64,000 nucleotides of DNA from Polytrichum commune (lineage: Eukaryota; Streptophyta; Polytrichopsida; Polytrichales; Polytrichaceae). Position 1 is the first letter of the stretch. Every line of letters begins with the position of its first letter. The position numbers and the translations under genes are program-made. Location: the NCBI GenBank assembly GCA_950295325.1, contig OX485808.1, positions 13,890,501-13,954,500 on the forward strand, given 5' to 3'. A model generated the notes under the pieces. The model saw only the letters and a program-made list of their open reading frames with translations. It had not been told where the DNA came from and did no database searches. Positions 2,973 through 39,349 of this stretch are shown here, piece by piece.

Positions 2973-3244
2973 GAAATATAACTCATACTTCATGGCTATG
3001 GCATAACACACCTTGATTCGTGAAAATTTTGAACTCCTGACACACTATTAGACTCTTCTTGCCTAGATGAGTTTATGTGAGATTGCGTGTCACCTCGTTA
3101 CCAAAATAAGGGTCCACGTCAATTTTAGTAGGTTTACAATGTATAATTCGTTATTATTTCACGTTGGACATTCAGGTCCGCTTCCCATGTTTTGCTGCCA
3201 ATGCATTGATTTACTCCTGAAGCACACACTATGGATGTGTAAAT
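2973..3244 (+). repeat. Direct duplication, copy 1 (partner 3269-3558)
   Basis: Both copies start with GAAATATAACTCATACTTCATG, share CTAGATGAGTTTATGTGAGA, the phrase CAGGTCCGCTTCC and the end ATGTGTAAAT, and differ by scattered substitutions and small indels. The pair sits immediately 3' of the DSS1 gene, which reads on the minus strand. It may include old 3'-flank sequence of that gene. Confidence 0.75.
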
Positions 3245-6840: not shown

Positions 6841-8425
6841 TCACTTCTTCTTCAGCGCCGCCTTCGTCACCTTCGCGCCCGACGGATCCTTCTTCTCCAC
6901 AGCCTTGATCACTCCCACCGCCACCGTCTGCCTCATGTCGCGCACCGCGAACCGTCCCAATGGCGGGTACTCGGCGAAAGTCTCCACCGTCATCGGCTTC
7001 GTCGGAATCATCTTCACGAACCCGGCGTCTCCGTTCTTCAAAAACTTCGGCTCCTTCTCAAGCTCCTTTCCGGACCGCCTGTCCACCTTCGTCAAAATCT
7101 CCGCGAACTTCACCGCGATGTGCGACGTGTGGCAATCCAGCACCGGCGCGTACCCGTTCCCGATCTGCCCGGGATGGTTCATGATGATCACCTGCGCCGT
7201 GAAGTTGGCCGCCTCGCGCGCCGGGTCGTTCTTCGAGTCCGACGCCACGTACCCTCTCTTCAGGTCCTTCACCGCCACGTTCTTCACGTTGAATCCCACG
7301 TTGTCTCCCGGGTGCGCCTCCAACATCGACTCGTGGTGCATTTCCACCGACTTCACCTCAGTCGTCAGTCCCGTCGGCGCGAAGCACACCAACATACCGG
7401 GCTTGATAACTCCTGTCTCCACTCGTCCCACCGGCACAGTTCCGATGCCTCCGATCTTGTACACGTCCTGCAGGGGCAACCTCAATGGCTTGTCCGATGG
7501 CCTCTTCGGCTCGAAAATGCCGTCCAAAGCCTCCAGCAGCGTCGGCCCCTTGTACCAGTCCAAGTTCGACGACCTCTCGATCATGTTGTCTCCCTCGAAT
7601 CCCGAGATGGGCACGAACGGAATCTTGTCGGGGTTGTACCCCACCTTCTTCAAGTACGAAGACACCTCCTTCGTGATCTCATCGAAACGGGCCTTGCTGT
7701 ACTTCGGGGTCGTGGCGTCCATCTGCAATCCACCAATTCCCAACAATTAACCCCTATACCTCCGTTTCCCAATGTACCTCAAACCTCACATTCACCTCCC
7801 AACACATAACCCACACCCCCACCGTCTCTTGTGCAGCCATCTCACTCTGCATTTCTTCCCATCCCAGCTAAACGAAACATAAATTCCAAACCCACAATCC
7901 ACATCTAACCCATTTCCAACCACCAACTTTCCGCGACTCTCCAACATAACTCCCACCACATACCTTGTTGCAGCAACAGATCATCTGCTTCACTCCCAAT
8001 GTGAATGCCAACAACGCGTGCTCACGCGTCTGCCCGTCCTTCGAAATACCGGCTTCGAATCCTCCCGTCGTCGAGTCGATGATCAACACGGCGCAATCAG
8101 CCTGTGACGTTCCCGTGATCATGTTCTTGATGAAATCGCGATGTCCGGGTGCGTCGATCACGGTGCAGTAGTACTTCGTCGTCTCGAACTTCCACAGAGC
8201 GATATCGATCGTGATACCGCGCTCGCGCTCTGCCTTCAACTTGTCCAGCACCCACGCGTACTTGAACGAACGCTTGTTCATTTCCGCCGCTTCCTTCTCG
8301 AAACGCTCGATCACACGCTTGTCGATACCTCCCAACTTGTAGATGAGGTGACCGGTCGTCGTCGACTTCCCGGAGTCCACATGGCCGATGACCACGATGT
8401 TGATATGGGCTTTCTCCTTACCCAT
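6841..8425 (-). CDS. EF1A: Translation elongation factor 1-alpha (eEF1A), two coding exons
   Basis: eEF1A is the cytosolic GTPase that brings aminoacyl-tRNA to the ribosome. Exon 1 (8425-7964) encodes residues 1-154 and exon 2 (7722-6841) residues 155-447 plus a TGA stop. The total of 447 aa is the standard plant length. Visible motifs are the P-loop GHVDSGKST (14-22), the switch region [13 protein letters not shown] (G3), and CNKMD (G4) formed across the splice junction; the C-terminus is [10 protein letters not shown]. The donor is AAG|GTATGT at 7963 and the acceptor GGATTGCAG|ATG at 7723; this intron position after K154 is shared by most plant EF1A genes. The coding exons are strongly GC-rich with C- or G-ending codons, unlike the AT-rich surroundings, consistent with very high expression. 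No frameshift or premature stop is seen. Confidence 0.97.
7723..7963 (-). other. Coding intron of EF-1alpha (241 bp)
   Basis: It begins GTATGTGGTG and ends GGATTGCAG on the minus strand. It splits the G4 motif: the lysine codon of CNK ends exon 1, and the ATG of [10 protein letters not shown] starts exon 2. Phase 0. Confidence 0.95.
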
Positions 8426-14401: not shown

Positions 14402-15794
14402 TTGCCCATAAGTTTCCACATATTATGCATAATTGCTCAAAGGACGAAATTAGTGATGATGAAAAAAATATTAAGGAATGGCCAATTGGAGACAATATTG
14501 ATGAATGGAAACAAAAGAAAGTTCATTGGGAGGTCAATAAGACAATCAAACAAAAACAAGAGGAAGAGGGCGGAGACTCATGACAAAAAGAGTGTTACGT
14601 AGAAGAAGAAAAAAAGTGGCACAAAATCCAAGATTTGGAGCCCCAAGAAAGGGAGCATCCCAACCAAGACTTATACGAGGGTAAACAAAATCATAGAGAA
14701 TGTGATGAATAGCCAAACATATCAAAAGCAAACATTTTAATAGGGCACTTGCTGGAAATAACCCTTATTGCAAGAAACAAATATTGGTTGCACCGGTGAG
14801 CCAAGAAGATTTTTTTTTAAAAAAAAAAACCCAAATTTATCAAATAATGGCAAAGGCATTTGATGAAGAAAAACCCATGCTATCGGTTATCATGGAATAT
14901 TGGTGCTTACCAAACGCATCAATTGATGGTGGATCAGGGGTAAACAAAATCATGGAGACATTGAGAGGAAAGATGGGACTCAAGAAAATAGAGTATGCAC
15001 CTTTCACCATAAAAATGGTTGACCAAAGGAATGTCATGCCCAAAGGAATTATCGAGAACGTAGGATTGGATGTCGATGGAATTGTAATTCAAACAACACT
15101 TACTGTTGTAGATAAGGTAAGCTACTAAGCATCAAGGATTGTTATTCCTCATTGCTAGGAAGACCATGATTGAAGCCCAACATGATTGGCCCCTCAACAA
15201 ATTAACATTGGGACAAAGGGAGAATAAGGTGGAATTGACACCCAAAGAACCCCATTTTACCACTTGGCTAAGAAACCCCTCAATTGGGAAGATTGTCACT
15301 AGGGAATGGGTCTATGTGATGAAGAGGAGGCGGTATTCTAAGTAGCATTCCCATAATTATTACATATGGAAGATTTTGATTTGAATAATTTAAAGAAATT
15401 ACAAATACATAATCGTAACACGGTAGGTGTTGACACCCCCAAAAACCAATAAGGCCTAAAACAATGATAGGTGTAAATGAGTATCCTCGACCTTGAAAAA
15501 AAACCAAGAAAGAGCAAGAAGCCATGGAAGGAAAACATGTATACCCCAACTACTTCTATAAATTTAAGGAAGGGGACATAATGGTGGACAAGACCCTTGC
15601 CTCCTAGGTTGTCAATGGGATGGATTGTTGAAGATGAAGACTGTGTAAAAAGTTTGAACTTAGGATCTCTTGAAGATCCTAATTTAGTAAAGATAGCTAA
15701 AGATGTAGGCAAGTTTGAAGCAAAAATCAAGGATCTTTTGCTACAATTGAAGGATGTGCTTGCATTTACTTATAGAAATATGAAAGGGATACCT
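14402..15794 (+). pseudogene. Decayed Ty3/gypsy pol: protease to start of RT
   Basis: The frame at 14784-15128 carries the gypsy aspartic-protease region (SIDGGSGVNKI, then FTIKMVDQRNVMPKGII and DVDGIVIQTT). The next part (HDWPLNKLTLGQRENKVELT) is the usual stretch between protease and RT. The frame at 15597-15794 ends with LKDVLAFTYRNMKGIP, the segment just before the RT fingers. Several stops and frame changes show it is dead. Coding sequence stops abruptly at 15794 and resumes in the correct frame at 28116, because the large LINE has inserted there. Confidence 0.82.
15783..15794 (+). repeat. Target-site duplication of the LINE, 3' side (AAAGGGATACCT)
   Basis: The 12 bases AAAGGGATACCT occur here and again at 28104-28115, exactly flanking the non-LTR element. 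Skipping the interval and one copy restores the reading frame of the gypsy RT. Confidence 0.93.
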
Positions 15795-15812
15795 AGATAG
15801 ATAGATAGATAG
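15795..15812 (-). repeat. LINE 3' tail, (CTAT)4 microsatellite
   Basis: AGAT repeated four times on the plus strand, directly against the target-site duplication. Ending in a short tandem repeat rather than poly-A is usual for several non-LTR clades. Confidence 0.8.
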
Positions 15813-16245
15813 AAACTCCGGTCCCTTTTAGGGGCCGGCGTGAATAGAGTGTCCGTTCGTAATGCCAACAACCCGATGCCCACAGGACATGGCGAAGCTG
15901 GGACAAAACTACTCTCCTCTTTCGAGGATGGACACTATAGTAACCGAGAAACAAATAACGTGGGCCGATCATGGCCCACGGCGGTGCATGCCTTTTAGGT
16001 ATAATTAGTGTTTTTGTTATGAGAGTGAACGCCAAGTCATGATTCCTCGGTTGGTTGTAGGAGGATGTTTGAGTTAAGACGTTCCGGGTTCGATTTCAGT
16101 CGAGTCCGTATGATCGTCTAAAATGTAACGCGTGACTTGGTGCTGCAAGTGAGTAAAAGGCAGGAAATTTGTACCAACCAGCCGGCACCAATCCCTCCTT
16201 CTGAGCTGTAAATAGATACTAAATATAATATAAGTTTTTTGGGTT
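15813..16245 (-). other. LINE 3' untranslated region, with a tRNA-like box-B motif on the opposite strand
   Basis: Noncoding sequence lies between the ORF2 stop and the tail. On the plus strand, GGTTCGATTTC at 16087-16097 fits a pol III B box and is preceded by the A-box-like stretch GGTTGGTTGTAGGAGG (16049-16064). It may be a tRNA-derived fragment or chance. Confidence 0.45.
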
Positions 16246-16389
16246 TTATGGAGGGTCTAAGTTTTGGGGGAGCGGTTGGTGGTTTTCAATTCTCCTCTTA
16301 TGGAGGAGGATGGACATGGCATATTGTATTGCTACCGTATTAATGTTTTTAAAGGTATTTTTGATGGTAACCAGGGGTATTTTGAGATT

Positions 16390-16722
16390 TTCTTCTAGTA
16401 TTTTCATAGATGGGATGTGGGCCGTAGCTCGGGCCCCAGCTGTGATGACAATAAGTGGTTCGATTTTCCATCCTCTAGAAGCGATACTATCAATCAAAGG
16501 TTTGTATTTGTTGTTTTTTGCTTCTATTGTTTCTGGGGAAAATCTGTCGTGACAATATGTGAATTCAATAAATTGTATGGTGAGGTTAGGGTCAATGTCA
16601 ATGGGAGGGTCATTTTGATATGGTAATCCTTTAACGCAGAGTATATCAGGTCGAAATCTTGCGTTGCAATGACATATTTGTGTGTTACATGTGCAGGGGA
16701 GTAGCCAATTGGGGACTGTATT
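16390..16722 (-). other. Restriction-like (PD-(D/E)XK) endonuclease domain of ORF2
   Basis: In the 437-residue C-terminal frame (17559-16246), residues 303-305 are RPD. They are followed by FIEFTYCHDRFSPE (330-343) and the helix AKNNKYKPL (347-355), then GWKIEPLIVITAGARATA (363-380). This order (RPD, a strand with an acidic residue, HD, K..KY) matches the R2/R4-type nuclease that lies C-terminal to RT. The K of the E-X-K is T here (EFT), a variation or a loss. Such a domain usually replaces, not accompanies, an AP endonuclease. Confidence 0.72.
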
Positions 16723-16863
16723 TTCTTGGGGGTTATTATTGAAGGTACCGGCATTCATGAGAGTAAAACATCGGGATTTTTCGGACGAGATTAGAAGCTT
16801 CCTAATTTCTCCGACTGCTTTGTTATGTCTTTTAATTCGTAGTGAGTGTATATGTTGTTGGTT

Positions 16864-16920
16864 GCATTTCAGTAGAACATGTAGCCAAGTGTCTGGATCG
16901 TTTGAATTGCATATAGGGCA
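16864..16920 (-). other. CCHC zinc finger before the restriction-like nuclease
   Basis: CPICNSNDPDTWLHVLLKC gives C-X2-C-X9-H-X4-C (residues 214-232 of the C-terminal frame). This spacing is typical of the gag-like finger found C-terminal to RT in many non-LTR elements. Confidence 0.85.
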
Positions 16921-17289
16921 TGTGATAGAGGGGTACCTCTGGTGACCGAAGAACATTTGTTTTCTAGCATTACTCATGTATGTTCCTGTGCGGAATTTAA
17001 TAAGGCAGGATTTTTGTTTGTCTGTGATTAAGGGATTTGTCCAGAATTCGTTGGACAGTTCTTTGTCAATGTCTATATTTTCTGTCCATTTACACGTGTT
17101 GGGGGTTTGTGTGGCCATGATTGCTATATTGGTTTCCCTATCATATTTTTTAATTTGTTTTTCTAAGAATCTTACTGGGCCTTTGTCTCGGACGTCTGCC
17201 ATTGAGGCCCAGACGTCCTTTTGGTAATAGTACGGGATGGCGTGGGCATGTTCGTATGGGTGGATGGCAATTCTGTGTTCTAATTCTAA

Positions 17290-17706
17290 ACCGTCTTTTG
17301 CTAGTTTATCCGCTTTTTCATTACCGTCAATGTTGACGTGTGCTCTAACTTTGTATAGTGTGATTGGCTGTGTACGGTCTTGGAGGATTTTTACCATGGA
17401 GTTGAGTGTGGTTTGGTCGGGGTGACTATTATGGAGAGTGGGGTGCTTAATTTGTGTGTTGAGTAGGTATAATACGTTTAGACTGTCTGTGAATATGAAT
17501 GCGGGTTTATTAGGGAATTTTGTATTGATGATTCTTAGTGTTTTGTGTATAGCCATCATTTTTGCACGTAGTATGTTTTGATGCCCATGGAGTCTTTTGG
17601 CGATATTTAAGCCTTAGGGGCTATGGATACCGTATCCAGCTCTTTCTCTTCTCCATACCCCAGGGGCAATTTCTTTGGGTTTTATAAAGGATCCGTGTGT
17701 GTAGTA
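17290..17706 (-). other. RNase H domain of ORF2 (inactivated)
   Basis: Signatures in order are YYTHGSFI (17706), GYGIHSP, then after a TAA stop NIAKRLHGHQNILRAKMMAIH (with the catalytic Glu region changed), FTDSLNVLYLL (the third acidic site) and NIDGNEKADKLAKDG. The first catalytic Asp of the usual YTDGS is His here (codon at 17700-17698), and the stop at 17614-17616 splits the domain, so the copy is doubly dead. Confidence 0.82.
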
Positions 17707-20049
17707 GCTAAATTGGGGGTGGAATTTTAGCGGTAAATTAGTTTGGTAGTTTGGAAGTTGTGGGGTAGGGGTATTATTGTGTGGGATTGTATTTGGGTAG
17801 TTTGATTTGGCCCATTTTTTACTAGGGTTAACGGTGATGTTTGGAGGGGTGGGTGGTGCAGTTTGTGTGTGACTTTGTAGTATTTGGAGGTTATTTGTTG
17901 TGTCGTTTATTAATTTCATTTGTTCGTCGGTGCCTACGTTATTATTTTGGTGATGGATACAAAATATTTGCATGGTAGATGGTTCTTTTCTTGTGATATT
18001 GAGCTCGGGGGGTATTGTGGGTTCCTCATACATGATCGTATCAGCGGCGAAATGGGCAATGACGTGTGTGTCTGGGAATGGGCCTGTGTGTGGGTTGGAG
18101 TTTTGGTACCAATTAGTATCCGGAGATATAAGTATAGTGATTGTATATGGATCATTTTGGGCCGTTATGCGCGCCCAGTGAATAGCTTGTTGTAGGTCTG
18201 TTGTATTATGAGGGTGTGCGTAACCGATTCCTTGCCATTTATGGTCAAACGCTTTACCTAGGGATCCAAATATTATGTCTCGCGAGAATGGTGAGTAGAA
18301 TTGGGTGAATTGTGTGGGACATGTAACTGGGGATGAAAAATATGAGTGGTTAATATTGAATGTTGTAATCAGGAGATCTAATATTTGGGTTGGTATTGTA
18401 TATTGGGCTCGTTTGAGTGGGTCATTTTTTGGGATACGGTATTTATACCTTTGGTATAACCAAACAATTTCAGTTTCGAACGATTGGGTAGATGGTTCTA
18501 GACCGTGTGTGTTGTTTTTTGCCAATTGGTATTGTTTCCATAGCCATGTTAGTCTAGCTTTCGGGATGGTAATGAGATGTCGGCCATTGTCTTCGTATAT
18601 GTGAGCGACATCGAATTGTGTTTGGATGGTATCAGAGTTTGTTTCGATGTCGTTTTCTGGGTTGCATTCATTAATAGAGATATGTGCTAGTGGAATTATT
18701 GTGGTTGGTGTGACGTATCTTGTGTCTCTATGTTGTTCTGTGGAGAAGTAGGCATTAATTATGTTTAAAAAATATTTGTGTTGTCTTTCTTTGTAGTAAT
18801 GGATAAGTAGGTCTGTGTTGTGATTACATGTGTTGGCTTCACAGTAGGGGTATAGGTCCTTTTGAGTTCGCCATTTGTTATATGTGTTGTTATTTGTTGT
18901 AGTCCATTGACATAAGTACGACGTGACTGTTCTTTTTATTCCGTTATGGTCATTAGATTGTTTTTGTTTATGATCGATTATTTTCTGTATGGGGAATTGT
19001 CGGGGGTCTTTAAGCATGTTGTTGGGAGGAGGGGGTAGAGGGGGGATGGGGAGGTTAGGGGGGTGTATGGGGGCGGTTGGTGGGTGTGGTAGGATATTGT
19101 GGTGTCTTATTATATATTTATTTTTTAGGGATCTTGGTGGATGGTGTTGTTGGCATGGTAGGGGGCATTGATTACAAGGGGGGTGGCAAAATAATTGATT
19201 AGCTATGTTAAGTGCGCTTTTAATAAGTTTAGAAGGAGTGGAGTGGTAGATTTTGAATTCGTCCGGGTTCATTAGAGTGGTACCATTAGGCATGGTAATT
19301 TGGTTTAGTGTCATTATATTATGTACAAGTAGTTTGTGTAGTAATTTAAGTGAGGTGTTGGGATTTAGGCCATGAAGCATTTGTGCTTCCTACATCCATG
19401 CAGTTTCAAGTGGGGATGGGTTTAGTAGAAAATTGTTTATTGTACTTTTTAGGTGGACTCCGGCTTTATGTTTGAGCAAGAATAATGTTCTAGTGATGGG
19501 TGATCTAACACAGTAGTGGTATTTAATGCGGGTGATTTCCTTAGAGCCCCCATATTTGGCGAGTATGAATTGAAGTAGATCAACATATATTTTCCCAATT
19601 CTACCTATATCATTGAGGGCGTTTTGTAGTTGTTCTCCAATGCATCTTAAATAGGCATTTTGTAGTGAGAATGCTTCGATTCCGAATAGATTGTGTGGGA
19701 GTTGTATAGCGATGTTAGATGTGCATTTGGATATTCCGCATATCGTTTTGTGAAGTGCTATGATTTTTTTATCGAGTTTTTTGATAGTTGGTATGGAGTA
19801 TGACACTGCGTAGAAGCTGTATGCTATTCCAGCACATATGACTGTATCTGCCATGTTTATTTTTTGTTTCATAGTAGCTGGGCATATTACAAGGGTTTGA
19901 CACTGTTTTATTACTTTAGCTGTAGTGGTATTTATTTGTGTTTTCCATTTGAGTGATGGTGCAAGATTTATTCCTAGATACGTGTATGGTTCATGTCGGT
20001 TTAAGACTGGTATAGGTTGGTTTCTGTAGTTAATATTGGTAGATTAGAT
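17614..20049 (-). other. ORF2 thumb/connection region between RT and RNase H
   Basis: Two long frames (19872-19390 and 19380-17614) are in the same phase, split only by TAG. The first reads like a non-LTR RT thumb (VICAGIAYSFYAVSYSIP, then LDKKIIALHKTICGI). The second, 588 aa, is Pro/Thr/Asn-rich without a recognised motif until the RNase H start. Confidence 0.6.
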
Positions 20050-20840
20050 TAAGGCTTTGAAGGTTATGGGGTGACGTTTGGATTTGTTTGGGCATCCAGT
20101 TATTGTGCACTTGGGTATTCCAAGATCCATTCATGTCCAATCGCAGAATTTGTCTAGTTTGTTGAGTTGTGTTTGTAGTGTCTCTAGTTTATTGGCGATT
20201 GCTGCTAGGTCATCTGCATATGCTGCTGATGAGATTTTAAATTTAGATGTACCAAAAGTGTATCCATTATTCTCTTGTTGTAGCCATCTGAGGAGGGGTT
20301 CTAGGAATATGATAAATAGATATGGGCTAAGGGTATCACCTTGTATTGTACCTCTTTGAATGGGGATTGGTAAGGTTTTACCGAAGTGTTCACCAGTGAA
20401 TATTGTTGAGGATTGTGAATATATGTTTCCTATGAGATTTATGGAGTCAGTGGTATATCCCAGATCTTTCATTATGGCTAAAAGTCTGGCGTGATCAATG
20501 GAGCCGAAGGCGTTTTTGAAGTCAATGTAAAGGATATATATATATCTTGGTTCGTGAGTCTTGCGTCATCAAGCGCTGCGATTAATAATTGGATTTGTCT
20601 AGAAGTGTTTATCTCTGCTCTAAACCCTTTTTGACTATCGTGTAATATTTGGTATTTTTCTCCATACGCTGATAGGATAAAAGTTAATGTACTCGTGTAG
20701 AATTTATATATGGTGTTAGCTAGTGCAATAGATCTATGGTTTGTTAGTTGTGATGGGTTACCTTTTTTGTATAGTAAAACTATTAGACTGGTTTTTCATG
20801 AAGCAGGGTTTTGTTTTTGTTTATAACAATGTTTAAAAAA
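20050..20840 (-). other. Reverse transcriptase domain of ORF2
   Basis: RT motifs can be read in order: LLYKKGNPSQLTNHRSIAL, then SQKGFRAEINTSRQI, the motif-A Asp in DFKNAFGSIDHARLL (about 20,475-20,520), IQRGTIQGDTLSPYLF (20,360-20,314) and the catalytic YADD (20,220-20,209). The order and spacing fit a non-LTR RT. The region is interrupted by a frame change around 20,540-20,560 and a TGA after CDWT at about 20,131. Confidence 0.9.
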
Positions 20841-21800
20841 TAAGAAGAGTAATTTATGGAAGCGTAGAGGCATGTTTTTTAGAATTGAATTGGGTATTTT
20901 GTCTGGGCATGGTGCTTTGTTATTACTTAGGTTTTTAAGACAAAAATTGTATGTTTCTTGGTCAAAATACGTGTGTAGGGAGGTTTGGGGTTCTCCTCGT
21001 TTGTCAATGATGTATCCGTCTAAGTCATGCCATGGATATTGCCGGACTCCACATGTGCAGTGTAGTGGGTGTGTATTTTGATATTGGCATGTGGGAACTG
21101 TAGGACGGTTACTGATGGATTGTTGCGTGTATATTTCTGTTGCGATGTCTTGTGGGTTAGTTAATATATTGTTTTGTTTATCAATGATGGAGTCCAGGGG
21201 TGAGGTTTTAGTGTTCTTGAAGACTTTTCGATTTATCTTTTTGGGGTTTTTTTCATTTGACGGTATTTTGATACGGCCTTTAACATGCAGTCTGTGGTGT
21301 ATTTTGTGGTGATTTTCCTGGCTTTTTTATTTGCATTTTTTGCGATGGTTGCTATGGCATCAATCCATTCAGTGGGAGGTGCCGTTGTAACAGGTAGGTG
21401 TGGGATGTTTATGTGTTGGTGGTTTCGTATATCATTTAGGATGGGGTGTGCTTGCCAGAGTGGATCGTGTTGTGCAATGTATATGGTTTTCCTGATGAGG
21501 TGATATGTATTGAGGTGTCTTTTCCATTTTCTCGCAAGTTTGCGTGGCAAAATCCCATCTTGTTATGATGTTCTGTTTGAAAGGTTGGGTAGTGGGTCTG
21601 CTTTACAGGTTTATTCAATTGTTTCTGAGATTTTGTATACAATGTGGTCGAATGTTGTACAGGTTTCCGCCCATTGATCCGGGCTTAAGTGTTGGTGGTT
21701 TTCGAGTAGGGTGGCAAGGGCTTTTATTTGTGCAGAGTTTTCTTCGAAGAATGTTATGTTGAATTTTTCGATGTTTTATGGTGGTATTGGGTTTAGTATT

Positions 21801-22640
21801 CTAGTTGGTGACGTGTTTGTGGGGGGGTGGGGATCTGGCTATAAAGGTGTTGTGGAGGATATGTAGTACAACTGGATAATGGTCTGAGTTTAGATTCATG
21901 TTTGTGTTTGTGGTAGAAATGAATTTGTTGTTGTCTGGTGAGTGAATGTAGAATCCATCTATTAGACTTGTTGATGTGTAATTATAGCGTCCTTGTCTAG
22001 AGATGCTAGTGTTAGTTGGGATATATTCTAGGTTGAGTGATGCGGTGAAAATTTTCCATTGGTAATCTTGTTTTTGTGGAGGGGTGTTAATGTTGTTATT
22101 TTGTCTGCCTCTAAGTGCGATATCTCGGTTAAAGTCCCCACATAATGTATACATGTGATTGGGTGTATAGTGATTTCGTTAGTGATTTCGTTCTTAAGGT
22201 GTGGAATGAGGCATGTGTCTTCTAAGTGTGTAGGCATGTACATATGTATGATTAGCCAAGGTATTAGTGGATGGTTGTTTATTTTAATTAATTATTTGTA
22301 GGTATGGGGATATATTTACTGGCGTGGGAATTTTGGTGATATTCCCAGGGAATGCATATTTCTTGTGGATAAGTGTGAGTGAGCCTCCTCTTCCGGGGGT
22401 ATAAGGCATTCTTTGTTGTATGCATCTTGTGAGTGCATGTGTGTTGTTGAAAATGAGTTTAAATTCCGGAAATAGATTTTGTATGTATTTTGTAGATTTA
22501 TTTGCAGTTAGTTTGGTTGGATATGTATGATTGCTGTGTTGTTTAGCGAGTTGTTTATTAGGCTTTGTAGGTTTGGTAATGATGTGTTGAGTGATGACGC
22601 ATTCCATGTTATTATGTTTGTTTCGTGCTCGGTGTCGGTG
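21801..22640 (-). other. AP-type endonuclease domain of ORF2
   Basis: The signatures come from three frames: NIITWNASSL (about 22,618), RGGSLTLIHKKYAFPG (about 22,390), LCGDFNRDIAL (GDFN at 22,139-22,128) and SDHYPVVLHI (22,887 minus 1,000, that is 21,887-21,858). GDFN and SDHYP are the classic catalytic motifs of the APE/exonuclease III fold in LINEs. Frame changes between them make the domain non-functional. Confidence 0.88.
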
Positions 22641-23270
22641 TTAATTCTTGGGGTTGGTGTGGGAGTAGCTGGAGGTGGGGGTGGGTGTGAATATTCGTTG
22701 ATCCTTTCTAGGCATCGGAGTGCTTCGGTGATCAATTGATTTGGGAGGAAGGGAAATTTATTTTGAAGGGTGATTGGTGTTGATGTAGTATCTTGGTTGT
22801 GGATAAATTCATATATCTCTGTGTGTATTGAATTTTTTGGATATATTTTATCTTGATTGTTTTCTACAAAAGTTGTGTAGGGGTGAGGTGTTGATATATG
22901 CCTTTCGGGGGGGTTGGTGAGGTTGGCCAGTCTGATAATCAATGTGTTCGTCCATATGTTATTAAAGTGGTGATTTTGGGGTTGGGCTAGTATGTTATTG
23001 CATGTGTCTATTGAGGGGTGGATGGTGATGATTAGAGCGTATAACATATATATGGATTAGTGGTGATTGCCTTTGTGTTTGGATATATTGATGTAGATGC
23101 GGGTAGGTGGTTATTGCTTGAGGGTGTAGTGGGTGTGTGTTTTTTAGTATGGGGGCAAATGTGTTTGCTATGTGTTGGTATTCAGGTTGTAGTTTTATAG
23201 TGTTTGGAATGAAGTAGATGTTAGCTCTTTTTTTGTGTGTAGCAGGGTGTGTATGTAGGATGTTAGACAT

Positions 23271-23315
23271 TGGTCCGGGGTTGGGTTCTATGTCCCCGCA
23301 TTTTAGCAATTCTAG
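23271..23315 (-). other. 2A-like ribosome-skipping peptide at the ORF2 N-terminus
   Basis: Residues 87-101 of the ORF2 frame read LELLKCGDIEPNPGP, followed by Met. This satisfies the 2A consensus D-(V/I)-E-x-N-P-G-P together with the usual upstream LL-x-x-G. In 2A sequences the ribosome skips the bond between the last Gly and Pro, releasing the N-terminal product. Similar peptides are established at the N-terminus of ORF2 in trypanosome and some marine-animal non-LTR elements, upstream of the AP endonuclease, exactly as here. Activity is inferred. Confidence 0.88.
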
Positions 23316-23545
23316 TTTGTTAATAAAGTAGTATCCGTGGGAATGGAATGTTTTTGGGTTTTTCATGTTTGTTTTTAGATAGATTATGATTGTGAACTTG
23401 GTTGTAGTAAAGAGGTTAGGTATAGCAGGTATGATGTTTTCTATTTGTTTGGGTGAGAAGTGTGAGTTTGTATTTTTTATAGATTTTTGGCTTGTTATTG
23501 AGTTAGGTCTCCAGTTATTTATGAAGTGGTATGTGTTATTATTTG

Positions 23546-23568
23546 TGTGGCGAGGCCGGTAGGCCGAG
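23546..23568 (-). repeat. 23-bp repeat at the ORF2 start (partner 23846-23868)
   Basis: The segment containing GGCCTACCGGCC (minus strand) overlaps the first codons of ORF2 (encoding SAYRPRH). An identical 23-bp copy lies exactly 300 bp upstream at 23846-23868, and the flanking 15-20 bases are also similar. GGCC-TACC-GGCC can form a small hairpin. Confidence 0.8.
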
Positions 23569-23573
23569 TCCAT

Positions 23574-24110
23574 TGTATCTTTTGGGTGAGGTTGGTATTT
23601 TGAATGAGGGTTTAATAGGTGTTTGAAATAGGATTTGTGATGGTGTTTGATGTTGAGGTGAGGTTTATTTAAGGTGAGTAGTTTATATTTACTTTTTGTA
23701 AATAGATTAGATAAGGCAATTATTGTTTTTTGTGTAGTTTTTGGGAGGTAGTGTATAGGTTTAGTATGTTGGTGGGTAGGCTTTGTGATTGTGTTAATGA
23801 TGGGGTTGAGGGAGTGGTAGTGTATATATCTTGTTAGTTTTATTTTGTGGCGAGGCCGGTAGGCCGAGGCCGTATTGTGTACTTTGTTGTATTGGATAGG
23901 ATATTGTTATATTGTGAGTAAATATATTTGTTTTTGTGAGGTGTTGGGGGGGTTTTCTTTGTGAAATTTTGATGTTATAGTATTCATGAATACTATAGGT
24001 AGGGTTTTATTTTTAGTACATATTAATAATTTAATAATGTTTTTTGTTTTTAGTATATAAATATACTATAAGTTATTTATATTTGTACGCCGCCGGGATG
24101 TTTGTCGAAA
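23574..24110 (-). other. Spacer between ORF1 and ORF2 of the LINE
   Basis: About 540 bp of noncoding, G/T-rich (plus strand) sequence, containing the upstream copy of the 23-bp repeat (23846-23868). There is no ORF. ORF2 translation would need reinitiation or an internal mechanism. Confidence 0.5.
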
Positions 24111-25481
24111 TTAGTTTGTCAAGTCCATATTGTTTTCAATTTCCGATATGTCCGGATGAGCCGCTTCGATAGCATCTAAGGTAATCTTCATTTGCCTTTG
24201 AAGGAGTTGTATTTGGAGCTTGGAATTCTTGTTTGACTCCGCTTGCACATGGTCGGCATAAACCTTTGCCTCTTGCACAATCTCACCTTTAAGGTTCACC
24301 ATTTCCTTTCGTATTTCATCCGTCCATTTTTTTACCGCTGCTTCTACCATCTTGTTGAGATATTTGTTGGTGATGTTTTGGTGCGGTCCATTCTCCAGAG
24401 CTTGGATGGTGTTTGCAAGTGCGGTGTTCACGTCTGAAAATCTAAGTCTAACTAGCTCTTCTTTACTAGGTGCATTTATCCCGTCTAGACTTTTTGGATG
24501 GGGGGTAAATTCAACATATTTACCAAATATTTTTTCATTTTTCTTAACAAATTTCTTGTAGACAAACGAGTTGAGGCATTGGACATTGCATGAGCCCGTA
24601 TGCTTCCCGTTCTGAAGTCTAAAGTAAAAACCGAGAACATTTAGTTCTCCCATGCATTTTCGGATTCCTTCTTCGATTTGCATGGTTGTTTTTACCTTAT
24701 TGAGGTTACGGACAATTAGAATGAGTGCATTCTTTCGGGCTTTATCATCTTCTGAGAGTTTTTCGTTACTTGCAAAGTTTACATCTACTATTTCATTAAA
24801 AAATAAAAGTTTGAGTGCTTTAATTCTTTTGGCTTCCTCTGGAGAAGGTGCTTTAATCCAAGCAAACTCTGCATCCGCCGATTTTTGCACATTCGTTATT
24901 TCAAAGTCAAGGCCTCGTCGAAATCCATCTTCAACTATTTCTACAAACAAATCATACCATTCTTTATCCTTGATTGACGGGGTTGTGATTTTGACGGAGA
25001 GCATGGATGCAATTGCAATGGTATCAAAGGATTTACACACTTTGCCTATAGCATGTGTAAATCGGCCAAGCTTGAGGATGAAAGGTCTCAATCCACAGAG
25101 AAGGCCATATCCATCAATTTCAGGGTTTTTAAGGTGGAGTTTAATAATTCCACTCCATCTTTTGGTCCCATGAAAACAAAGGACAACTATGGGCTCTCCT
25201 AGGACTTCCCCGATCTCTATCCTCATTGTTTTTAGTCTATCCTTTGTTAAGGTGAGTATCACATCTCTATCCAATTCTATTTTTTCAATTTCAAAATGGA
25301 TAAATATGTGATAGTCCAAAGCAAATCCATGGTCACCCACTTCCACATCTGAAGGAATCTGGGTGAGATTGTAGTGCATTCCCTCCTTACCATCCGTTCG
25401 TATAGAAGGCCACTCTTCTTGGGCAACGAACGGAAAGGAGGGAGATGACTCCACCATTTCATGTGCTTCAGACTCACACAT
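24111..25481 (-). CDS. LINE ORF1 protein, 456 aa, open
   Basis: The frame is uninterrupted from the ATG at 25481 to the stop at 24111. I recognise no close family. Residues about 252-330 look RRM-like: a LILIVRNL strand, then GSCNVQCLN, then KYVEFTPHP. Residues about 370-440 are charged heptad-type sequence fitting a coiled coil (KMVEAAVKKWTDEIRKEMV, then QLLQRQMKITLDAI). An RRM-like domain plus coiled coil would suit a nucleic-acid-binding ORF1 of a LINE, and its position upstream of ORF2 on the same strand fits. Base composition is balanced, unlike the A/C-rich ORF2. Being open next to a shattered ORF2 is odd. It could also be an unrelated captured gene. Confidence 0.65.
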   Translation of the reverse strand: MCESEAHEMVESSPSFPFVAQEEWPSIRTDGKEGMHYNLTQIPSDVEVGDHGFALDYHIFIHFEIEKIELDRDVILTLTKDRLKTMRIEIGEVLGEPIVVLCFHGTKRWSGIIKLHLKNPEIDGYGLLCGLRPFILKLGRFTHAIGKVCKSFDTIAIASMLSVKITTPSIKDKEWYDLFVEIVEDGFRRGLDFEITNVQKSADAEFAWIKAPSPEEAKRIKALKLLFFNEIVDVNFASNEKLSEDDKARKNALILIVRNLNKVKTTMQIEEGIRKCMGELNVLGFYFRLQNGKHTGSCNVQCLNSFVYKKFVKKNEKIFGKYVEFTPHPKSLDGINAPSKEELVRLRFSDVNTALANTIQALENGPHQNITNKYLNKMVEAAVKKWTDEIRKEMVNLKGEIVQEAKVYADHVQAESNKNSKLQIQLLQRQMKITLDAIEAAHPDISEIENNMDLTN

Positions 25482-25731
25482 ACATTTTGACTAACTCAGT
25501 GAAAGAAGGTGTTTGAATGAGAGGCATGTTGGCAAATTTTGCAATTGTGTTCATAGTTTGAAAACCAAGCCAATAGGGGGGGGGGCGTGTTCTCTCAGTG
25601 GGTACTATTCCTTTAACTTTTTTTTGACTTGACAATACCACAGCAAGCATTGGACGTTTTCCACTTGTAGAATCTATTTTTTCATTTTCAAACAACTTAC
25701 GGGATGATGAGGTTGGAGTGATGGTTGCCAT
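25474..25731 (-). CDS. Short 85-aa ORF overlapping the start of ORF1
   Basis: It starts MATITPTSSSRKLFENEK and ends FTELVKMYV; its stop overlaps the ORF1 start by eight bases (ATGTGTGA). It may be the true N-terminus of ORF1 separated by one indel, or a separate upstream cistron with termination-reinitiation. A run of ten or more C on the coding strand near 25577-25587 encodes Pro residues and is a likely slippage site. Confidence 0.45.
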   Translation of the reverse strand: MATITPTSSSRKLFENEKIDSTSGKRPMLAVVLSSQKKVKGIVPTERTRPPPYWLGFQTMNTIAKFANMPLIQTPSFTELVKMYV

Positions 25732-28103
25732 TCTGATATAAGCAAAGCAAACAAACGTTTTGTACTTTAGTTTTGAATGAGGTATACTTCTTATTTTCTT
25801 TCCTCTAATTCATTTCCACAAATTAAGTTGTGGGCCTCCTAGGAATTGAGAGTGAAAGAAGAAGTGATTTGCATGTTCTAACATCATATGAGTACTAGTA
25901 TGAGTACAACTTGCATTCATCCTATGATAACACCTTTTCCTATTCATATGAATCTTCATATTAGTATTTACAAATTGGTTGTAAGTGCTCTTATGTAGAT
26001 TATGATTTGTCATAACTCTAACATTTCATACATCTCCTAAGCATTTGAGGCAAGTATAACTAAAAGCACAAGCATCTACCGTTACTACCACGGATCCATT
26101 ATTTCAAATGGAACATTCATTTATGATATGAACATTAAGGTTGTTATACCATACCTTTGGATTTATGACGTTCTTATATGTGTTTTTGAAGCAAGAGTTT
26201 GTAAGGCATTCCCATGTGGTATGAGAGTTGACACTATGAGAGTATATCCAGTATGGTGTGGCTAGTACTAGCCACATAATGATAACAAGGTAGGTTGCAT
26301 ATGCAACCTTCATTTTGCTTACTATCCTAACAAACCTATCAATGCTATGATGTGTCTAAGACTATGTGTGTGCCTATGTGCAAATAATGAGAAAACAAAT
26401 TAACGTGTAAACTTACTAAGCGGATGAAGAGCAGCAAAACGACAGTCAACAACAGTTCCAGCAGCAACACTTTGCCTTCAATCTCCTTGACTACTTGTTA
26501 TGTGTGTGCATCTATCTCTATGTGCAATAAGTGGTTAGGAGCCTTACATGAGGAACTTCTTTGGGTTTGGTAGTGTAGCAGCTTCACGATTTTGCAAGAG
26601 CTCTGAGTACGCTCCAGACAGCAGCTCGGCCTGCTGTTCTACCGCAACAGCTCCTCCAGTGTCTCGGCAGGCAGTTCCTTCTAACTGGCAGCAGCTCTTT
26701 CTCTGCTCGGTCAACTGTCCAGCAACAGTCTTCACAGCTCCTTCTCTGCTCGGTCAATTTTTCGACAGCAGCTGCCACAGTCTTCACGGCTTCCAGCAAC
26801 AATCTTCTCGGCTCCTCCTTTATTCGGTCAACTTTCGGCAGCAGCTGCCTCAGCTCCAACAATAATCTTCTTTGCTCGGTCAACTGTCAGCAGCAGCTGT
26901 ACCAATCTTCACAGCTCCAGCAGCAACAGGTCTTTGGTTGTATTGGTGCAGCTTGATAAGTTTGAGCAGTTTTGGGTAGGCAAGATATGCACTCAATCGT
27001 ACCCCTCATAAACCACTTCGGCGGCTTAGGGTAGTCTAGCGGAGATCTCAGCTAGAGAGTGATGCTTTGGACGGTGTAATCAGGGGTTCGGCAGTGTCAA
27101 GAAGTAAGATTTGAATGTTTCGAGAAGTAAGATTTGGATGTCAGGAGAACTTGTATCTAAACAGGGTGAGAACACTGTATAATCCGCTATCTACTTCGAC
27201 GCTTTTATACTAATATCTCAGTCGATCTCTCTTCCAGGGACGATTGTTGGCGATCTTCGGTGGGGAAGTAGCAGGCAGATCCTTGGTGGGTTCAAGAGGC
27301 GAGATTCGACACAGGAAGGGGTTGTGTCTAAGATCTTCGGTAACTGATGGTAATCAGAGATCTGTATCTACTTCGGCGACTTTTCTTCTAACCAATAACG
27401 TGGTCAAGATCTCAGCTAGGGACTGATGTTTCTAGAGAGTGGGATCCAGAGTTTACTCTACTTTAGTCTAAGTGAATGGAAGCAATTTCAGAAAGTGAGG
27501 TTCAAGACGTGAAGCATTCTGTCTCTAAGCGGACTGATAAACTATAAGGTGGGATCTAAGAATCCTCTGATTTCTCGCCTGGTATGAGATTGCGGCGGGG
27601 TTCGGGAGGGTGCTCCTGGTCTTCGGTGATGAGCAGCTTCGAGGTCTCTCCTTGCTGATCTCTGCTTCTTCTTCTCTGCAGTCTTGTTTGGCTGTTGCTG
27701 GCACTTCTTCGGCAGCAGTGGGGTGGTAGGCCGGTCCTTCGGCGGTGTGATAGTGAGTAGGTCCCTCGGCAGCGTACTTCTCCAACAGCCGTGTAGATCC
27801 TTGTGTTCTCCTTCGGCCGCACAGGTGTAGACAGTTTCTACAATGTCAGCAATGCTGGGTTGCGGGGGGCTTCGGGGAACGAGAGGTGAAGTGATAGTGA
27901 AGTGTTCTTCGAGAGGTTTTATACTGGGGTGGGGGTCGTGTAGTGTCCTTTCGAGCGTCGATGAGGTGGGTGGTCGAGGGGAAAGATCCAGAGGAGCAAC
28001 AAGCATGCTACTTCAACTTTGACTCTTTCCCCCTTACCTCCTAGCAGCCTCGCAGAATTTTGTCAAAGCTTCGCCGGCGTAGTGGAGCGCTCCCCTAGTG
28101 TCC
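25732..28103 (-). other. LINE 5' region with imperfect repeats; no convincing gene
   Basis: The part at 26430-28103 is GC-rich compared with 25740-26430. At 26590-26930 there are imperfect tandem units containing CTGCTCGGTCAACTGTC and CAGCAGCTG. Longer-range repeats include AGATCTCAGCTAG at about 27043 and 27412. Such repeats resemble promoter monomers of LINE leaders. A 154-aa Pro/Arg-rich frame (28006-27542) and overlapping frames have no recognised motif and I do not call them genes. Confidence 0.5.
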
Positions 28104-28460
28104 AAAGGGATACCTCCACACGTGTGCGAGCATAAAATTGAACTACAACCAAATGCGAAGCTAGTAGACAAAATTGTTACGGACTTGACCCTAATTGTGC
28201 TGCCAAAGTAAAAAGAGGTTATTGGCAAATACCTCGAAGCTCAATTCATCTACCTAGTGGACAAGACTAAATGGTAGTCAACAATTGTGATTGTATCCAA
28301 AAAGAACGGGAAACCTTGAGTATGTGTTGACTATTAGAAGTTGGATACAATCATTAAAATTAATCATTCTTTTTCTATATTTTACGGAATCAATACTGGA
28401 AGTTGTAGCTGGTCATAAGATGTATATACTAATAGGCTAGTACAGTGGATAATAATGATC
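28104..28460 (+). pseudogene. Continuation of the interrupted gypsy RT
   Basis: It starts with the second copy of the target duplication and continues PHVCEHKIELQP, then YLEAQFIYLV, VSKKNGKP-VCVDY-KLD and AGHKMY. These are the RT fingers and palm motifs of Ty3/gypsy elements in the usual order. At least five stops are present. Together with 14402-15794 it is one old gypsy element into which the LINE inserted. RT similarity fades after about 28460. Confidence 0.85.
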
Positions 28461-36756: not shown

Positions 36757-37739
36757 TGTCGCGCACCTCTCCATGAGGAGTGCCCGAAACACCATGGGCA
36801 CAAGGGGGACGCTGGAGTGACACCCGGGACTTGTGGCGCCGTTGGTGAGAGGGCCCAAGTGATCCTAGTGTGGGTGAGGGCCCCGTGCGTTGGGAACGCC
36901 TCCCACCCACGGCGACTAGGAGGCACAAGCGTTAGGCCATGAGCTATGCGTAGCTCATGGCGTGGTGATTCTAGAATGCTCAAGATCACCTCAATCGGAG
37001 GTGTGAGCTAGGAGTTATGGCAATTTGAGTGGGGCGCTGTCCCGGGACAGTGCCCTGGTACAGCAGTGCCTGGGAGTGATTCCGGAGACTGCCAAGGTTC
37101 AAACAGGCATAACTCCCTCAAGACTTGCCGGAATGGGGCAAGTGAGGAGTCCATTGGCATCTACGTGAAGCGTAGATAAAGATGGAGTGGTTGATAGTTA
37201 TGATCAAACATCATACAAGGAAGTTGTGATGGTCTGAAGCTCCTGGGGCTTCTAGGCCCACCGGCTAAAGGAAAATGTCCACTTGGCCCCAACTCTTGGT
37301 AGAGAGACAAGAGGTTGGTTGACGGTGGGGTAGGGGCCCCGTGTAAAGTCCTAGAGGCTTATATGGGTGAGGTGGTGTGGCCTCATCCACCCGAGGCCGA
37401 ACGGCACGGCCTCCTTGGGCATTGGCCCAATGTGAGGCCATAGTTGCCTAGTATGGTTCTGGTTGTTGTAATGTTGCTCCGGCAATGCGATGATCAACAT
37501 AGGATTGGACTTCCATGGATGGAAGTCCACATTTGGGAATTGGTTACCGATTAAGGGGTGAGTCCCAAAAGCAACATAGGAGGGTTGGTTCCCTCCTAGG
37601 AACTATAAGGTCCGGGATAGGAGGAGGTAACCATTAGCATGGCGGAATGCGAAGGGTTAGCGCTCGTAACCTTTGCTAGAAACGAAAATTGGCAAGATTA
37701 TTAAGGGGGGGCTAGCAAGGGTTGCGACACAACACAAGC
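36757..37739 (+). mobile_element. Solo LTR (983 bp) of the 48.9-kb gypsy family
   Basis: It starts TGTCGCGCACCTCTCC and ends GGGTTGCGACA. It matches the two 974-bp LTRs at 48918 and 54996 along its whole length with scattered differences. A perfect 5-bp duplication CAACA flanks it (36752-36756 and 37740-37744), so it came from a complete insertion reduced by LTR recombination. It splits the space between the DGNHR and SWIM genes. Confidence 0.93.
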
Positions 37740-37744
37740 AAATA

Positions 37745-39349
37745 TGCAAGGATTACAAAGACGCGAAAACAATGGACGATGCCGAGACTAAGTATCATGT
37801 GATTCGTTCTTGGTGGTTGTCATCCGGATCTGACTCGGAAGAAGGCATTATTTGCCTTTTAGAGTGGTTGGATTTTTGGCACTTTCGTTACAGACAATGG
37901 GGTGGTCATATGCTATTTGTAAATACATATCAAAATTCATTATTCAATGTCATTCATTTTTCTTCCATTATCATATATATCTTATATTTTTATTATCCTC
38001 ATATTTTTATGTTGTTCATAGAATATGACAATAGAACAACGTGCGGAAATGCCAACATGCAACCTTACAGAGACTATACACAAAAAATGGCTTCAATTAT
38101 CTGGCAACAAGATGATTTATTTATATTAAGCTACAGTGGACGACATGATCCATGCCTTCATGCAAATTGCAAATCACCGGACATGATTGAAAGGAAGTCT
38201 GATGGTAAAGGTCTTGATTCGGCATCCTTGAAATTCAAAGCGTCTGCCATATGTGGAGTCTTAAAAATGTTGGTTGATGCCATGAAGTCTTATATAGGGG
38301 CAGAAGACGTCAACACTAGAGATTGTGCATTGGAAGGGTCAGAGTTCTTTGGTTCCACCAAACGCAAACTCAACCTATCACCGGGTGTTGATTGTGACTC
38401 TCATCGACCCGACAAAGTGAGTTATTTCATTCCTCGTCCCAACACCCGAGCAACTCGTCAACGCATAGAGGAATCGTTGAATTCTGCAATTCATGGTGTG
38501 GCTCATACCACATCTGTGTTAGAGATTGATTGTTTTGTTTCTAAGTGGCACATTGCAAGATTGCCACCCAACTCAGCCAAACGATGTTGGACACTGCAGG
38601 CCATTACAGGGACTATGTGCAATAACAAAATCGGGATTGGGAAACATGGCACACCTGCTCCAACATACAAAAGGTTCAGGAAGGAATTTTACTCTCCCAA
38701 CAATGTGGAGTATGAATTTTGGTTTTGCCTTGACGATATCAAACATTATGTGAGTGACAGTAAGAAGAAATATGTGTTGGATTGGCCTATAGTACCCAAC
38801 ACGTGGCCGGTGAAGATAGGTACCAATCTATCGAGAGAGGAGGTTTTGGCACTTAAAAATGTTGAATTTCAACTACAGCAGAGGGAGGCATTGTCCCCTC
38901 GTCGTAGGCTTTCAACAATCGCAACTCTTCCCAACCCTCGCTCGCATTTTTGTATGCCACCAAACCCGGACGTCCACCCTACATTCAGGTTTGGGAAGAC
39001 AGTGCGTCGTAATTCAATAGCACCGCTGGCGGATCACAAAAACAAATGGGAGAACACCGGACTCATGGAAGATTACTATGTGGTTGGGGTCACTGCCATT
39101 CTATATCCAGGCTTTGGAGTGATAATCAACATTGTCTCCAAGTAGGATATCACCTACCATGTCACAATTGGCGACATCCTGCATTGCACATGCCCTTATT
39201 TCACGAAAATGTCATCTCATGTATTGGGAAAAAAAAGAAAATGGGTGTATTGTAAACATCTTCATTATGTGTTTAGATTTTTGTGCAAGGTGGATTACGA
39301 GAGTGACAAGTTCATTCATGCACCTACATATACCTATAATGAGGTAATG
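37745..39349 (+). pseudogene. SWIM zinc-finger protein gene, decayed
   Basis: An almost continuous frame runs to 39349, broken by TAG at 39143-39145. After that stop it reads on in frame through HCTCPYFTKMSSHVLG and YCKHLHYVF, a CxC...CxH SWIM finger (39185-39259). A likely intron (37919-38021, GTAAAT...TCATAG) joins to a frame reading CNLTETIHKKWLQLSGNKM and ATVDDMIHAFMQIANHR, typical of such plant proteins; that frame has a TAA and a TGA before the main frame resumes. Conserved-looking segments follow: KWHIARLPPNSAKRCWTLQA, GTPAPTYKRFRKEF and EFWFCLDDIKHYV. SWIM fingers occur in MULE-type transposases and in FAR1/FHY3. I cannot say which family this is, only that the finger is clear. Confidence 0.65.

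Follow-up and report, generated by a model that had tools for sequence, protein, structure and literature searches.

The element in the window

The window, which is the whole stretch of DNA analysed (64,000 nucleotides of the moss Polytrichum commune), bears on its minus strand a LINE copy flanked on either side by AGGTATCCCTTT. This element encodes two ORFs and is composed of the following features:

15795–28103, minus: whole LINE copy, 12,309 bp, bounded by target-site duplications; other copies align to 26490–15794 at about 97%
28104–28115, minus: target-site duplication, 5' copy, AGGTATCCCTTT
15783–15794, minus: target-site duplication, 3' copy, AGGTATCCCTTT; first base ambiguous with the tail
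25732–28103, minus: 5' region; the part beyond 26490 varies between copies
24111–25731, minus: ORF1, beginning with MATITP and about 540 aa long; split between two frames here, within a 747-codon open frame in three copies
16246–24135, minus: ORF2 region; interrupted by frameshifts and stops in this copy, open over 2625 codons in copies L009, L010 and L011
23271–23297, minus: 2A/StopGo-like motif GDIEPNPGP; position conserved in relatives
21870–22612, minus: AP-type endonuclease (APE; GDFN, SDH); Exo_endo_phos_2 2.6e-4, below the family cut-off
19965–20760, minus: reverse transcriptase (RT); RVT_1 5e-18 here, 2.3e-29 in L009; ends approximate
17890–18681, minus: PCIF1/CAPAM-like methyltransferase-fold domain; ends approximate; GYAHPHN at 18205–18225
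17287–17709, minus: RNase H; PF00075 3.2e-8 here, 5e-13 in L009; ends approximate
16864–16920, minus: CCHC zinc finger, CPICNSNDPDTWLHVLLKC
16297–16653, minus: restriction-like endonuclease (RLE), RPD...E...KxxKY; 3' limit approximate
15795–16245, minus: 3' UTR and (TATC)n tail

The motifs quoted in the initial annotation do lie on one strand and in order: on the minus strand, GDIEPNPGP is followed by GDFN (22122–22145), SDHYP (21870–21887), YADD (20206–20229), the RNase H motifs (17299–17706), the CCHC finger, RPD (16627–16653), FIEFTYCHD (16546–16575) and KNNKYKPL (16495–16518). The Pfam matches to RVT_1 and RNase_H, obtained from single frames of the window copy, argue against chance motifs. 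The claim of a single ORF2 stands for L009, L010 and L011 and falls for the window copy, where the first two thirds of ORF2 are spread across several frames and two in-frame stops follow further on. Its RNase H has also lost the first aspartate (YTHGS).

ORF1 and the PCIF1-like domain had been missed in that annotation. A 459-aa piece of ORF1 gave no Pfam family above cut-off. The stretch 24114–25490 was considered as a separate element and rejected, because it runs into ORF2 and moves together with it. A hydrophobic open frame upstream of the ORF1 ATG is not called coding because of its pN/pS of 0.59—versus 0.33 for the ORF1 core, by crude counting—and its flanking splice-like sites. Splice-like sites are also the basis for a possible 5'UTR intron within 25732–28103, ending just before this ATG. 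A weak Chromo match (0.13) was seen; ARAGORN found no tRNA, and all four Rfam matches lie below their gathering scores.

Copies in the genome

The C-terminal 455 aa have 92 further scored copies in the genome at 91–98% identity. Intact copies are present on three chromosomes (L009, L010 and L011), and each bears in one continuous ORF2 frame the 2A motif, APE, RT, PCIF1-like fold, RNase H, CCHC finger and R2-type RLE. A (TATC)n tail ends six of six copies, and inspection of six flanks by eye revealed no shared target site.

The pN/pS values given below come from quick pairwise alignments, in which L015 and L028 probably belong to one subfamily and hence do not count as independent. An all-pairs table was left out because L013, L016, L019, L021 and L025—probably rearranged or truncated—align to L009 at only 62–86%. 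For the window copy and L012 against L009–L011, high ratios on few changes were obtained for the PCIF1-like domain (0.67 and 0.55) and the RT (0.83 and 0.17).

Two endonucleases in one protein

The presence of both endonuclease types is borne out by motifs and Pfam for the APE and by fold for the RLE. N-terminal to the RT, GDFN is found in 16 and SDHYP in 15 of 21 sequences. In L009 the APE scores below the cut-off (Exo_endo_phos, 8.8e-4), whereas the related proteins P0015 and P0020 pass it; these two hold APE, RT, PCIF1-like domain and RNase H in single proteins, with the RLE in the same chains.

The C-terminal RLE is recognised mainly by its fold, which in intact copies is that of the R2 RLE; virus cap-snatching nucleases and others are listed well below R2 in the Foldseek and VIA lists. 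The R2-type finger and RLE together are found by profile and fold, with most of the profile score coming from the finger: the nuclease stretches alone reach i-E values of 0.066, 0.082 and 7.1 in matches that begin downstream of both the PD and the E motif; with Bombyx R2, only the finger is matched. The moss RLE reads EFT, without the lysine of ExK, and its P, D, E and D residues are invariant across nine elements. Between diverged copies, pN/pS amounts to 0.11 for the APE and 0.06–0.10 for finger plus RLE; by these ratios, both endonucleases are under similar purifying selection.

The 2A-like motif

The added 2A-like peptide of the initial annotation occupies the same position in 14 of 16 close relatives. 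GDIEPNPGP, which fits the core D(V/I)ExNPGP, was read in the window copy, and 14 of 21 sequences also have it. Among the relatives, 2A position 14 is E in only 5 of 14 and often Q, H or K in the others. The peptide upstream evolves nearly free (pN/pS 0.59–0.67). In 31 proteins with a PCIF1-like domain, many of which stop short of this N-terminal region, the motif was not found. A 2026 survey found no evidence that plant viruses use StopGo (PMC12846837); the moss element supplies a natural StopGo-like site from a plant.

The PCIF1/CAPAM-like domain

The domain between RT and RNase H has the methyltransferase core fold of PCIF1/CAPAM and lacks the catalytic NPPF. Instead, AHPH[NS] is found in 19 of 21 sequences (absent in L018 and L021) and AHPPN in L037 and L038; the one NPP[FYW] match, in L019, lies in an unconfirmed frame. 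Both the N and the aromatic F are replaced in the moss-type sequences that were read (AHPHN, AHPPN, AHPNN, AHPHS). The 31 proteins with this domain contain no NPPF, and N-P-E-Y at the site in 16. The literature searched yielded no paper combining Dualen and PCIF1.

Family placement and alternative readings

In the RT tree, L009, L034, P0008 and 17 other RTs form one clade of unnamed proteins with support 100/99, which lies outside human L1; the RT is also nearer to R2 (5.4e-26) than to L1 (2.2e-14). Neither an L1 (L1-clade RT and no RLE) nor an R2-clade element (RLE as sole endonuclease, RT in the R2 clade) describes what was found. An APE N-terminal to the RT, a C-terminal RLE, RNase H in the same protein and non-A short repeats at the 3' end—the latter a pattern of the family (PMC3747384)—point to Dualen/RandI, a membership that rests on architecture, tail type and the RT clade of unnamed proteins. 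The Dualen-like lineage in a land plant proposed at the outset is supported in this form: neither of the two outcomes named there as refuting it was observed, since the C-terminal block of intact copies has the R2 nuclease fold and the RT stays apart from L1, and the host comes out as a land plant closest to mosses. Very probably, the window element has decayed from a dual-endonuclease non-LTR retrotransposon of Dualen/RandI type, which is present in the moss in high copy number and was active recently. A common L1 or I-type LINE of plants, its C-terminal motifs being degenerate or due to chance, would equally bear APE, RT and RNase H, as described for plant L1 and I-group elements (PMC4640811) and, for the APE, for the L1 and I groups (PMC3636483); the RLE fold and profile, the RT placement and the low pN/pS of finger plus RLE make it highly improbable, and it was rejected. 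Even less credible is that an APE-LINE and an RLE-LINE were joined, either by nested insertion or in the assembly. The scattered frames of the window copy and the poor alignment of some copies to L009 might suggest such a composite, but continuous frames on three chromosomes and single-chain relatives led to its rejection.

For the dual-endonuclease element, it is rather unlikely that one endonuclease is a relic and the other integrates alone: the missing ExK lysine and weak APE scores would fit this, while the similar selection on both enzymes and the unchanged RLE residues speak against it. As an active N6-adenosine methyltransferase, the PCIF1-like domain might mark the element's own RNA cap (m6Am-like), letting it evade decay or host sensing; the domain's homology to CAPAM and its matching fold, its purifying selection when diverged copies are compared and the near-NPPF N-P-E-Y are in line with this, yet NPPF is missing from all 31 proteins and the moss-type sequences read have replaced both key residues, so that such activity seems improbable. 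We tentatively favor that the domain may have lost methylation and might bind the element's own RNA at its cap or 5' end. A broader scenario is less likely than not: Dualen-type LINEs as a group might have acquired, between RT and RNase H, a domain that methylates cap adenosine, which mosses then made a non-catalytic reader of RNA 5' ends.

Proposed mechanism and significance

ORF1 would coat the element RNA. At the 2A peptide, the ribosome might skip one peptide bond, yielding a leader that evolves fast and, separately, the catalytic protein starting with proline. One endonuclease, presumably the APE, would make the priming nick, the RT would copy from the (TATC)n end, and RNase H would remove the RNA; an offset cut by the other, presumably the RLE, would give the duplication of about 12 nt—a putative order of cuts. 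The PCIF1-like domain, with HPHN for NPPF, may bind the element RNA at its capped or 5' end instead of methylating.

Two DNA cutters, RT, RNase H, 2A and PCIF1-like domain are a combination reported so far only partly, mainly from algae. The position of Dualen has served as an argument that APE LINEs arose by RLE replacement (PMC4640811). A land-plant family with intact copies allows each nuclease to be disabled separately, which makes it testable which enzyme makes which cut. A cap-methyltransferase-fold domain in a LINE would connect retrotransposition with RNA 5'-end recognition. If the reader interpretation holds, the integration machine would recognise capped, full-length RNA of the element among other RNA, and reader, two endonucleases and tunable 2A site would constitute a self-contained system licensing full-length insertion.

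Comparison with known systems

With PCIF1/CAPAM, a cap-specific adenosine N6-methyltransferase, the moss domain shares the methyltransferase core over about 220 residues, but it sits inside a LINE ORF2 and bears HPHN. The 2A-like motif in a retrotransposon ORF resembles that of 2A-bearing LINEs (L1Tc of trypanosomes, sea urchin and others); those of Odon 2013 are reportedly of APE type and different elements from the moss one. R2 retrotransposons are rDNA-specific and are not known to carry an APE, RNase H or PCIF1-like domain. The moss element shares their CCHC finger, restriction-like endonuclease fold and KxxKYKxL, and differs by carrying APE, RNase H and PCIF1-like domain. Dualen/RandI non-LTR retrotransposons occur in green algae and are also reported from cryptophytes; the original description is said to include a cysteine protease in Chlamydomonas Dualen, and no such Pfam family was seen in L009 ORF2. 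The moss element is like them in its APE on the N-terminal side and C-terminal RLE in one RT protein, its RNase H and its non-poly(A) tail repeats, and unlike them in its land-plant host, its 2A-like motif near the ORF2 N-terminus, its ORF1 of about 540 aa and its PCIF1-like domain, which is common to its unnamed relatives.

Structure of the window copy and its intact relatives

All motifs named in the initial annotation are present on the minus strand of 15795–28103 in the order that it gave, and its bounds are upheld by AGGTATCCCTTT, which stands at both 28104–28115 and 15783–15794. A (TATC)n tail closes the element at its 3′ end. Single window frames match the Pfam families RVT_1 (5e-18) and RNase_H (3.2e-8) as well as Exo_endo_phos_2 at 2.6e-4, under the cut-off of this family. 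The copy is decayed: its ORF2 runs through several frames across the first two thirds and then bears two in-frame stops. The claim of one ORF2 hence fails for the window copy itself, but stands for the genomic copies L009, L010, and L011—intact elements in which all domains sit within one uninterrupted frame (2625 codons).

GC skew on the plus strand is +0.33 to +0.60 across window 16001–24000, a strong strand bias; on the sense strand of ORF2, C is strongly enriched and A is enriched too. The ORF1 stretch shows no such richness in C. A weak chromodomain match (E 0.13) lies at and around window 18904–18924, ahead of the PCIF1-like domain. In the related proteins P0015, P0020, and P0022, PHD-finger matches under the Pfam cut-off fall between the RT and the PCIF1-like domain, and precomputed domain listings give a PHD finger for P0061, P0062, and P0068; none was seen in L009.

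Other features in the window
7868–8425, minus strand: Elongation factor Tu/EF1-alpha GTP-binding domain (PF00009, 2.8e-47)
37673–39145, plus strand: 490-aa open frame with zero Pfam matches up to E 0.1

The assembly searched (407.8 Mb; seven contigs of 42–78 Mb) holds at least 92 further copies at 91–98% identity besides the window's own, as found with the C-terminal 455 aa as query and 93 of 6300 first-look candidates scored. Twenty of the other copies were read over 10 kb each, five of them with extra upstream sequence. From 26490 (26420 in copy L020) to the 3′ end, the window and five copies share 96.9–97.2% identity. Past 26490, the 5′ regions vary, with short blocks of 70–84% identity and of at most 53 bases close to the junction; among the copies compared, only L009 and L011 match throughout.

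Where both ends were available (the window, L009, L010, L011, L012, and L020), the exact 12–13 nt from the tail/flank junction were found again upstream in six of six, within a searched stretch of 2.7 kb in the copies and 8.2 kb in the window. One to three of these bases may derive from the tail, which puts the duplication proper at ~9–13 nt. By-eye inspection of the flanks at these six sites revealed no common target.

Selection on ORF2

Selection was assessed with the diverged pair L015 and L028—probably one subfamily—which show 87% identity to L009 over ORF2.

pN/pS by region; the closer comparisons (window, L012) rest on few changes
Region; L015 and L028 versus L009–L011; window; L012
Before 2A; 0.59–0.67
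After 2A; 0.19–0.20
APE; 0.11
RT; 0.07; 0.83; 0.17
PCIF1-like domain; 0.08–0.10; 0.67; 0.55
RNase H; 0.12–0.13
Finger and RLE; 0.06–0.10; 0.16; 0.17

On the evidence of the diverged pair, constraint on the PCIF1-like domain equals that on the catalytic domains, despite its altered catalytic motif. We read the higher ratios of the window and L012 as neutral decay after insertion; by themselves, they are no sign of selection.

ORF1 and the 5′ region

The 459-aa window piece of ORF1 matches zero Pfam families above cut-off. Among its genomic matches (92 scored of 811), identity groups of ~92–96%, 85–87%, 58–67%, and 46–54% are found; hence, several lineages coexist in this genome. Directly 5′ of the ORF1 ATG, a splice-acceptor-like sequence (pyrimidine tract, CAG) occurs in two families, that of L009 and its sister family L034, and L009 has a donor-like CTTG|GTAAGT upstream of ORF1.

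Splice-like region, from sequence only
25705–26490: window
2360–3049: joined L029+L009
280–341: L034

This region is a candidate for a retained 5′UTR intron within a LINE. Ahead of the ORF1 ATG, ~200 codons are open in frame (joined L029+L009 2425–3048); this stretch, of doubtful coding status, has the hydrophobic start MKVAYATYLVIIMWLVLATPYWIY and several cysteines.

The 2A motif

Within the window's family, 14 of 21 sequences carry the strict 2A motif and 15 the looser one, some others being rearranged or truncated. Fourteen of 16 close relatives (P0024, P0037–P0051) bear it at the equivalent position; it is missing from P0038 and P0040. Position 14 is E in five of these fourteen, Q in five, H in three, and K in one. 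PMC12846837 gives >95% activity for H at this position in the contexts that it examined, and quotes earlier work with 56% or 26% for E14Q. The motif is found in none of the 31 proteins bearing the PCIF1-like domain, many of which stop short of the N-terminal region. An origin confined to moss seems likely, and is unproven because of these short proteins.

A 2A-like motif also occurs in P0058, another LINE. In L034, from the window's genome, the good motif GDIETNPGP is accompanied by a degenerate upstream YIETKPGP in another frame (L034:3526–5305), a pattern that would fit a duplication of the N-terminal part with its 2A. By eye, P0037, P0044, and P0045 have hydrophobic stretches close to their N-terminal ends and ahead of the 2A; these stretches recall the sea urchin 2A signal sequences (PMC4981915).

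Placement and comparison with known elements

The initial annotation had proposed a Dualen-like lineage in a land plant. The RT tree has 38 rows—a 20-RT clade, human L1, three R2 rows, and 14 further unnamed rows. Four of the 38 are long-branched, and two more sequences were left out because no RT could be read in them. L009, L034, and P0008 fall within the 20-RT clade (support 100/99), which excludes human L1 and all three R2 rows. These 20 RTs are called Dualen-like as near relatives of P0001, some being too short to show other domains. In direct comparison, R2 is nearer to this RT (5.4e-26) than L1 is (2.2e-14). As for the host, its plastid PsaB matches three Physcomitrium PDB sequences (8htu, 6l35, 7ksq) at 1701–1705 bits, the next entry at 1667, angiosperm entries at ~1630, and a Chlamydomonas entry at 1539, which makes it a land plant and most likely a moss.

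Among the matches listed, literature searches on fern, lycophyte, gymnosperm, moss, and land plants returned no land-plant Dualen-type element, and Dualen and PCIF1 were not found together in the literature searched; most subscription papers lie outside this scope, so novelty is not proven. Dualen/RandI is characterized by APE and RLE within one element (PMC4640811, PMC3636483), is given for green algae only in a 2015 survey (PMC4438587), and, as LINE/Dualen, was reported from cryptophytes in 2025 (PMC12747079).
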